From positions 1 through 64,000 of the forward strand of contig NSIR01000005.1 in the NCBI GenBank assembly GCA_002737445.1: a DNA stretch of 64,000 nucleotides, given 5' to 3'. Source of the DNA: Nitrosarchaeum sp. (GTDB lineage: Archaea > Thermoproteota > Nitrososphaeria > Nitrososphaerales > Nitrosopumilaceae). Shown piece after piece: positions 4,991-61,769 of the stretch. The notes under the pieces are model-generated. The model was not told where the DNA came from and made no database searches. It saw nothing but the letters and a program-made list of their open reading frames with translations. Made by a program: the position numbers and the translations under genes. Each line of letters starts with the position of its first letter. Within the stretch, counting starts at the first letter, position 1.

Positions 4991-5307
4991 CGGTAGTAGG
5001 TAGGATTAGGGTGCTAGCCGTGCCCTGTTCTGAAACCGGCTATACGCAGAGATCAGCAACTGTTGGGTAAATCTCTAGATAGGTAATTCCCACTTGGTGT
5101 GCGGAAATGAAATCACGCCGAGGCGGGTGGTTGCAGGACGAGAATTATCCGAAGGGATAACGTCTAAGTTCGAACCATCGAAATGGATGAGGTCCGGGAG
5201 GGAGCAATCGTAAGGTGGAGCATCCACGCTTCCTCGTCTACGTGGCGGATCTTGTATGCCTTGAGATGGGGTTATCCGCCTAGACTGGAACCAACGGATC
5301 TACTACC
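4991..5307 (+). ncRNA. Signal recognition particle RNA (7S, archaeal type)
   Basis: A GC-rich block of about 317 bases in AT-rich surroundings. The ends pair (GGTAGTAG at about 4992 with CTACTACC ending at 5307), forming helix 1, typical of archaeal SRP RNA. An Alu-like 5' domain (GTGCTAGCCGTGCCCTG...) is followed by a long rod. A hairpin with a GAAG loop (TTATCC-GAAG-GGATAA, about 5147-5162) fits helix 6, and GGTCCGGGAGGGAGCAA (about 5191-5207) fits the helix 8 loop that binds SRP54. The length is normal for archaea. RNase P RNA was considered, but its GAGGAAAGUCC signature is absent. Confidence 0.88.
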
Positions 5308-12275: not shown

Positions 12276-12280
12276 TTGAA

Positions 12281-12365
12281 TGCGGGAAGTGGGATTTGAA
12301 CCCACGAACTCCTAAAAGATAAGGATCTGAACCTTACGCCTTTGACCAGGCTGGGCTACTCCCGC
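12281..12365 (-). tRNA. tRNA-Leu (anticodon CAG)
   Basis: On the minus strand the 85-base sequence folds as a class II tRNA: acceptor GCGGGAG pairs with CTTCCCGC, with discriminator A. The anticodon arm TAAGG-TTCAGAT-CCTTA gives anticodon CAG, a long variable arm follows, and the T arm carries GGTTCAAATCC. The long variable arm and A73 agree with leucine. CCA is not encoded. No intron is seen. Confidence 0.93.
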
Positions 12366-12445
12366 AATATGAATTTTTGAAATCTAGAATAAGTTTCTTT
12401 ATCATGTACATTTATTTAAAATACACAAGAATAATTAATTAAAAT

Positions 12446-19061: not shown

Positions 19062-19137
19062 AGCCCGGTAGTGTAGCGGTCAAGCATAGGGGCCTTTGAA
19101 GCCCTTGACCCCAGTTCGAGTCTGGGCCGGGCTACCA
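19062..19137 (+). tRNA. tRNA-Gln (anticodon TTG), CCA encoded
   Basis: Acceptor AGCCCGG pairs with CCGGGCT, followed by discriminator A and an encoded CCA (19135-19137). The anticodon stem GGGGC/GCCCT holds the loop CTTTGAA, giving TTG, which reads CAA and, with wobble, CAG. The T arm has AGTTCGAGTCT. The first pair is A-U, a feature by which archaeal amidotransferases tell tRNA-Gln from tRNA-Glu, consistent with GatDE in this window. Confidence 0.92.
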
Positions 19138-38771: not shown

Positions 38772-38845
38772 GCGAAGTTAGTCTAGCTCGGTAAGATGTC
38801 AGCTTCCCAAGCTGAAGGTCGCGGGTTCAAATCCCGCACTTCGCA
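38772..38845 (+). tRNA. tRNA-Gly (anticodon CCC)
   Basis: The 74-base sequence folds as a normal tRNA: acceptor GCGAAGT pairs with ACTTCGC, discriminator A. Anticodon stem TCAGC/GCTGA closes the loop TTCCCAA, giving CCC. The T arm is GCGGG-TTCAAAT-CCCGC. CCA is not encoded and there is no intron. Confidence 0.95.
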
Positions 38846-61614: not shown

Positions 61615-61640
61615 TACTTTATTTTTACATTTTTAATTAT

Positions 61641-61710
61641 CTGGCACGCGGGATGTTCGATGGGCGAACGGACCGCAAGGGATGACGATAAAATCCGCGT
61701 GTCAGATTTT
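61641..61710 (+). ncRNA. Unassigned GC-rich structured RNA, three-way junction
   Basis: A sharp GC-rich island in a very AT-rich gap. It folds exactly: P1 CTGGCACGC (61641-61649) with GCGTGTCAG (61697-61705), 9 pairs with one G-U; P2 61650-61674, two G-C pairs, a tandem G-A step, then TGTTCG/CGAACG around the loop ATGGG; linker GCAAG; P3 GGAT/ATCC around a 9-base loop. TTTT follows at 61707. CTTTATTTTT at about 61617-61626 fits a TATA box. No tRNA, C/D or H/ACA layout fits. It may be an independent sRNA or a leader element of the next gene, though the next gene has its own TATA box. Confidence 0.6.
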
Positions 61711-61738: not shown

Positions 61739-61746
61739 CTTTTATG
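61739..61746 (+). promoter_or_regulatory. TATA box of the 61770 gene
   Basis: CTTTTATG is centred about 26-27 bases before the GTG start at 61770, implying a leaderless transcript and separating this gene from the structured RNA upstream. Confidence 0.4.
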
Positions 61747-61769
61747 GAAAAAATTAAGTCATTTGATTA

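Follow-up and report, generated by a model that had tools for sequence, protein, structure and literature searches.

The nucleotide equivalent to C1402 of E. coli 16S rRNA is 2'-O-methylated in three domains of life, as Cm1376 in Pyrococcus abyssi and likewise in yeast, human and bacteria (PMC7005279). The P. abyssi site is also numbered Cm1369 (PMC11542601), and the other equivalents are m4Cm1402 in bacteria and Cm1639/Cm1703 in yeast/human (PMC7005279, PMC11542601). By the N+5 rule, the target of a box C/D guide lies opposite the guide nucleotide five places upstream of box D (PMC11542601, PMC4644070), and a second C/D motif has been reported to be essential for archaeal guides (PMC8413462). 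In eukaryotes the guides for this nucleotide are SNORD43 and snR70. For the archaeal C/D RNA sR12, the equivalent site has been predicted as the target (PMC3511168). The RNA described below shares its predicted target, the C1402 equivalent, with sR12 of Pyrococcus and Sulfolobus, and shares both target nucleotide and the guide core GACGGGCG with SNORD43 (U43) and snR70 (RF00221 and RF01238). A published primer for human SNORD43 reads ACTTATTGACGGGCGGACA, with the same guide core and the same 2-nt spacing to the box. In this primer the guide core is followed by CA.., which we take to be that box. There are also differences: ordinary archaeal C/D guides have two motif pairs, whereas in the new RNA a single kink-turn is combined with a long P1, and SNORD43 and snR70 differ from it in overall architecture. 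Their Rfam models do not recognise it.

The window, a 64,000-nucleotide stretch of Nitrosarchaeum sp. DNA, carries the RNA in the gap between a glycosyltransferase-like gene and a small zinc-ribbon gene. An earlier note, made from the sequence alone, had described a GC-rich island at this place as a three-way junction of helices P1, P2 and P3 that could not be assigned. The features as now understood are:

61618-61626 (+): TATA-like TTTATTTTT, a possible promoter, from its sequence and weak positional enrichment
61641-61705 (+): the island RNA, 65 nt, GC-rich
61641-61651 (+): P1, 5' strand, CUGGCACGCGG, all 11 pairs with both-side changes across 46 sequences
61656-61668 (+): P2 hairpin, UUCG-AUGGG-CGAA
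61658-61666 (+): guide CGAUGGGCG, complementary to 16S rRNA at E. coli 1400-1408, 5'-CGCCCGUCG-3'
61664 (+): guide position 5 (G), pairing with C1402 of 16S, where 2'-O-methylation is predicted
61669-61672 (+): box D-like CGGA, for which most relatives have CUGA (alignments A1 and A2)
61673-61680 (+): apical stem-loop CC-GCAA-GG, which closes the kink-turn
61682-61688 (+): box C-like AUGACGA (RUGANGA family-wide), in sheared G-A pairs with box D
61695-61705 (+): P1, 3' strand, CCGCGUGUCAG, all 11 pairs with both-side changes across 46 sequences
61739-61747 (+): TATA-like CTTTTATGG, about 30 nt before the GUG at 61770

Fold, conservation and distribution of the island RNA

The island is where the earlier note placed it and is a genuine structured RNA, with a folding energy of -27.9 kcal/mol against a mean of -18.5 for shuffled sequences (z = -3.3); one shuffle of 200 folded as well. 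The search of Rfam that the note had proposed was run on release 15 and returned no matching family. Among the C/D families, neither RF00221 and RF01238 nor any other matched the window RNA at E values up to 10, and identities as tRNA, SRP, RNase P or H/ACA RNA were rejected. We found no description of the RNA in the open-access literature. The family is new but varies on a known kind of RNA, and databases beyond those searched may list it.

A covariance model of the island RNA (R1) matched 313 of 400 sampled Nitrososphaeria genomes, covering 63 of 82 genera and 194 of the 220 high-quality genomes, and a genome with the RNA almost always had a single copy. DNA searches likewise recovered it from most genomes of the window's genus and family. 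A few good-quality genomes (G015, G018, G150 and G066) had no match, and when the genomes lacking one were scanned by pattern for diverged copies, background was all that came up. The strict pattern TGATGA..GACGGGCG..CTGA had no match in 397 genomes of the phylum, so that no ordinary C/D guide with exact boxes was seen to take the place of this RNA (the canonical RNA of locus L125, described below, came from a covariance model). A looser pattern scanned over named genomes returned mostly bacterial chance matches, together with records of Nitrosopumilus, Nitrosopelagicus, Nitrosarchaeum and marine group I.

The proposed test for compensatory changes in relatives separated the three helices. P1 passed it: in an alignment of 46 diverse sequences all 11 pairs show changes on both sides, 98.2% of cells are paired and the whole structure scores above all 500 shuffles. 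The sequences had been aligned by fitting them to the model, but the MAFFT alignment A1, made without such fitting, leads to the same conclusion. P3, drawn as GGAU with AUCC, shows compensatory change at none of its pairs among the aligned relatives and is broken in some of them, and was rejected. P2 is present as a hairpin in the sequence and is a weak helix (85.2% of cells paired in the 46 sequences), at -3.5 kcal/mol for the window's GUUCGAUGGGCGAAC and 0.0 for two variants. Its proposed extension through a G-A step (columns 10-11 with 34-35, 14 with 31 and 16 with 30) finds no support except two A-U cells at one pair. In L126 and L127, both from genus g21, P1 and P2 are absent while both the guide and the kink-turn remain identical. 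A conserved TTTGAATATAAC was also observed upstream of each of these two matches.

The tandem G-A step itself is real. It belongs not to P2 but to the third element of the RNA, which, as read from the aligned sequences, is a kink-turn of box D and box C in place of P3. Its layout is C[U/G/C]GA - CC-GNRA-GG - GAU - GA[C/A/U]G with a 3-nt bulge, and the consensus across aligned copies is CNGA for box D and AUGANGA for box C, with tandem GA; the window copy has the variants CGGA and AUGACGA. Both GA steps are invariant in A1. The apical stem is paired in 100% of cells although its sequence and length vary, with compensatory changes such as that from C-C/G-G to G-C/G-C in L029, and the pair between box D position 2 and box C position 4 occurs as U-A, G-C, A-U and G-U. 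The island RNA does have a box C/D-like layout, which the earlier note had not recognised. The layout was probably missed because box D precedes box C with closure by an apical loop, because the window copy reads CGGA for CUGA and AUGACGA for RUGAUGA, and because the competing P3 hides the kink-turn when the sequence is folded in isolation. No aligned copy has a second C/D motif pair, there being neither a box C on the 5' side nor a box D on the 3' side, and for this reason we describe the RNA as C/D-guide-like and stop short of counting it among the canonical guides.

Complementarity to the 16S decoding centre

The sequence CGAYGGGCG lies directly 5' of box D and can form 9 bp with the 16S decoding centre through guide positions 3-11. 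The guide is rRNA-complementary and in register, with its N+5 nucleotide opposite C1402, and it has the GACGGGCG core over the C1402 equivalent, the target of SNORD43 and snR70 and the predicted target of sR12. Every one of the 46 sequences pairs with 16S at positions 4-10. Positions 4-7, 9 and 10 are invariant in this set, an invariance of the core that is partly ascertained since similarity was the means of finding the homologues. Position 8 is U in 25 sequences and C in 21, both of which pair with G1405. Position 3 is A in 4 of the 46, breaking one pair, and position 2 is mismatched with 16S. The target is identical in all 23 of the 16S genes fetched. In the window's own assembly, rated 99% complete, no 23S rRNA gene was found, so the 16S target of the window's own genome was read from relatives.

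When guides were scored over aligned 16S and 23S rRNA from 21 genomes, the 16S site CCGCCCGTCG ranked top with a mean of 8.60 of 10, against 7.86 for the next-best site. In 122 of 3000 trials (4%) a column-permuted guide matched some rRNA site just as well, and complementarity alone is accordingly not decisive. The guide-16S duplex is worth -17.8 kcal/mol, compared with -3.5 for P2 and, in the window's genus, -9.4 for the A-loop of 23S rRNA. The A-loop was the first idea, and the match to the C1402 methylation site was noticed after the fact. P2 is probably the resting fold of the guide.

A proposed guide with one kink-turn and the alternatives to it

Taking register, boxes and conservation together, we consider it likely that the island RNA is a box C/D-type guide for Cm1402, with a single kink-turn and with P1 replacing the second C/D motif. 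Once expressed, the RNA would be bound by L7Ae at its only kink-turn and, so bound, would recruit Nop5 and fibrillarin. CGAYGGGCG would leave the weak P2 hairpin and pair with 16S at E. coli 1400-1408, whereupon fibrillarin could 2'-O-methylate C1402 by the N+5 rule. P1 would close the molecule and take the place of the C/D motif, terminal or second, that normal archaeal guides have. Fibrillarin was found in all five genomes tested, that of the window included.

The absence of the second C/D motif that archaeal activity is said to need would also fit an RNA that, bound by L7Ae at the kink-turn, acts on the decoding centre by pairing with it, as a chaperone or checkpoint of assembly, and leaves C1402 unmethylated. 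One copy per genome and a nearly invariant core agree with such a role, yet it gives no reason to expect a universally methylated nucleotide to lie precisely at N+5, and we regard it as unlikely. Guidance or chaperoning of the 23S A-loop (5'-CUCGCCYAU) has considerably less to commend it. This is the second-best site and G168 has the full 10 bp, but a mismatch interrupts the pairing in the window's genus (GCCAAU) and in all GACGGGCG lineages. Failing in the window's own genus and in the GAC lineages, the A-loop was rejected as a target. An H/ACA guide, or some other structured RNA whose AYGGG loop binds a protein, is scarcely more plausible. Archaeal H/ACA RNAs also contain kink-turns (PMC3608112) and P2 could present the loop; however, no ACA box follows P1 in any of the 46 aligned copies, the fold is branched and lacks a single-hairpin pocket, and P2 is not kept in L126/L127.

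Least probable of all is a cis-regulatory element of a neighbouring gene, whether riboswitch or 3'-UTR element, a reading that draws on the fixed position of the RNA in Nitrosopumilaceae, about 30 nt after the glycosyltransferase-like gene and before the zinc-ribbon gene. Both of these neighbours are missing near most copies outside that family, several basal lineages instead have the RNA gene directly 5' of tRNA-Ala, and the constant association with a downstream gene that marks riboswitches and leader RNAs was not found. The zinc-ribbon gene, moreover, has a TATA-like element of its own, kept in many aligned relatives, which is probably the separate leaderless promoter of this GUG-start gene and no part of the RNA, as the earlier note had also supposed. 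The changing context argues for a stable trans-acting RNA, not a riboswitch. The earlier view of an independent RNA with no database match is in this respect upheld, and it is the description of that RNA as unassignable that falls away. Of the flanking signals that were noted, the TATA-like stretch upstream is no more than suggestive of a promoter, exact TTTAAT, TTTATA, TTTAAA or TTTATT hexamers being weakly enriched at about -35 to -16. Relatives do not conserve the TTTT that follows P1.

If the island RNA is indeed a one-kink-turn guide for Cm1402, a function would be assigned to a housekeeping RNA that is absent from Rfam and present in most sampled ammonia-oxidising archaea, and a further lineage would join the handful with known machinery for this universal decoding-centre modification. 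More tentatively, and with the balance leaning somewhat against it, Nitrososphaeria may use a distinct class of C/D guide with one kink-turn, closed by an ordinary helix and active as a half-particle. Such activity would run counter to the notion that two C/D motifs are required in archaeal guides, and the RNA would offer a naturally minimal C/D guide for testing whether one kink-turn suffices in archaea.

Related RNAs and other matches

In another class of the phylum, the sequence at L125:1486-1559 (-), ..CGACGGGCGGA-CUGA-AGAG-AUGAAGA..CUGA-GCUCCAA, can be read as a canonical C/D sRNA with two motifs, and it lends independent support to the guide reading of the island RNA. Its guide CGACGGGCGGA is the same and is followed by CUGA in the register of the island RNA; unlike the latter, which has no second pair, L125 comes to two motif pairs through a terminal stem (UUGGAGC/GCUCCAA) that goes with a box C-like GUGAGG and another CUGA. 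It is, to all appearances, an sR12-like canonical C/D sRNA with a C1402 guide.

Pre-tRNA-Trp introns are a known home of C/D guides. Three matches from outside the class (L122-L124) and one from inside it (L128, where a tRNA model spans the match) look like such introns, around 1501-1560, and probably are pre-tRNA-Trp introns with a C/D-like RNA of one kink-turn. Picked up by model R2, they share the layout of the island RNA, with a long outer stem, a guide, CUGA and GAUGA; the two may have an origin or a mode of assembly in common. The introns differ from the island RNA in lying inside tRNA genes, and the L122-L124 guides, ACGGGUUUG, in matching tRNA, not 16S: they complement a CAAACCCGU-like tRNA sequence. 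The guide of L128 is different again.

Other RNA features were observed in passing. The window has an archaeal SRP RNA gene at 4994-5305 (Rfam RF01857) and tRNA genes at 12280-12366 (-), 19062-19137 and 38772-38845, and L070:2034-2186 (-) contains three evenly spaced, weak CRISPR-repeat-like matches (RF01354) that lie below the curated cut-off.
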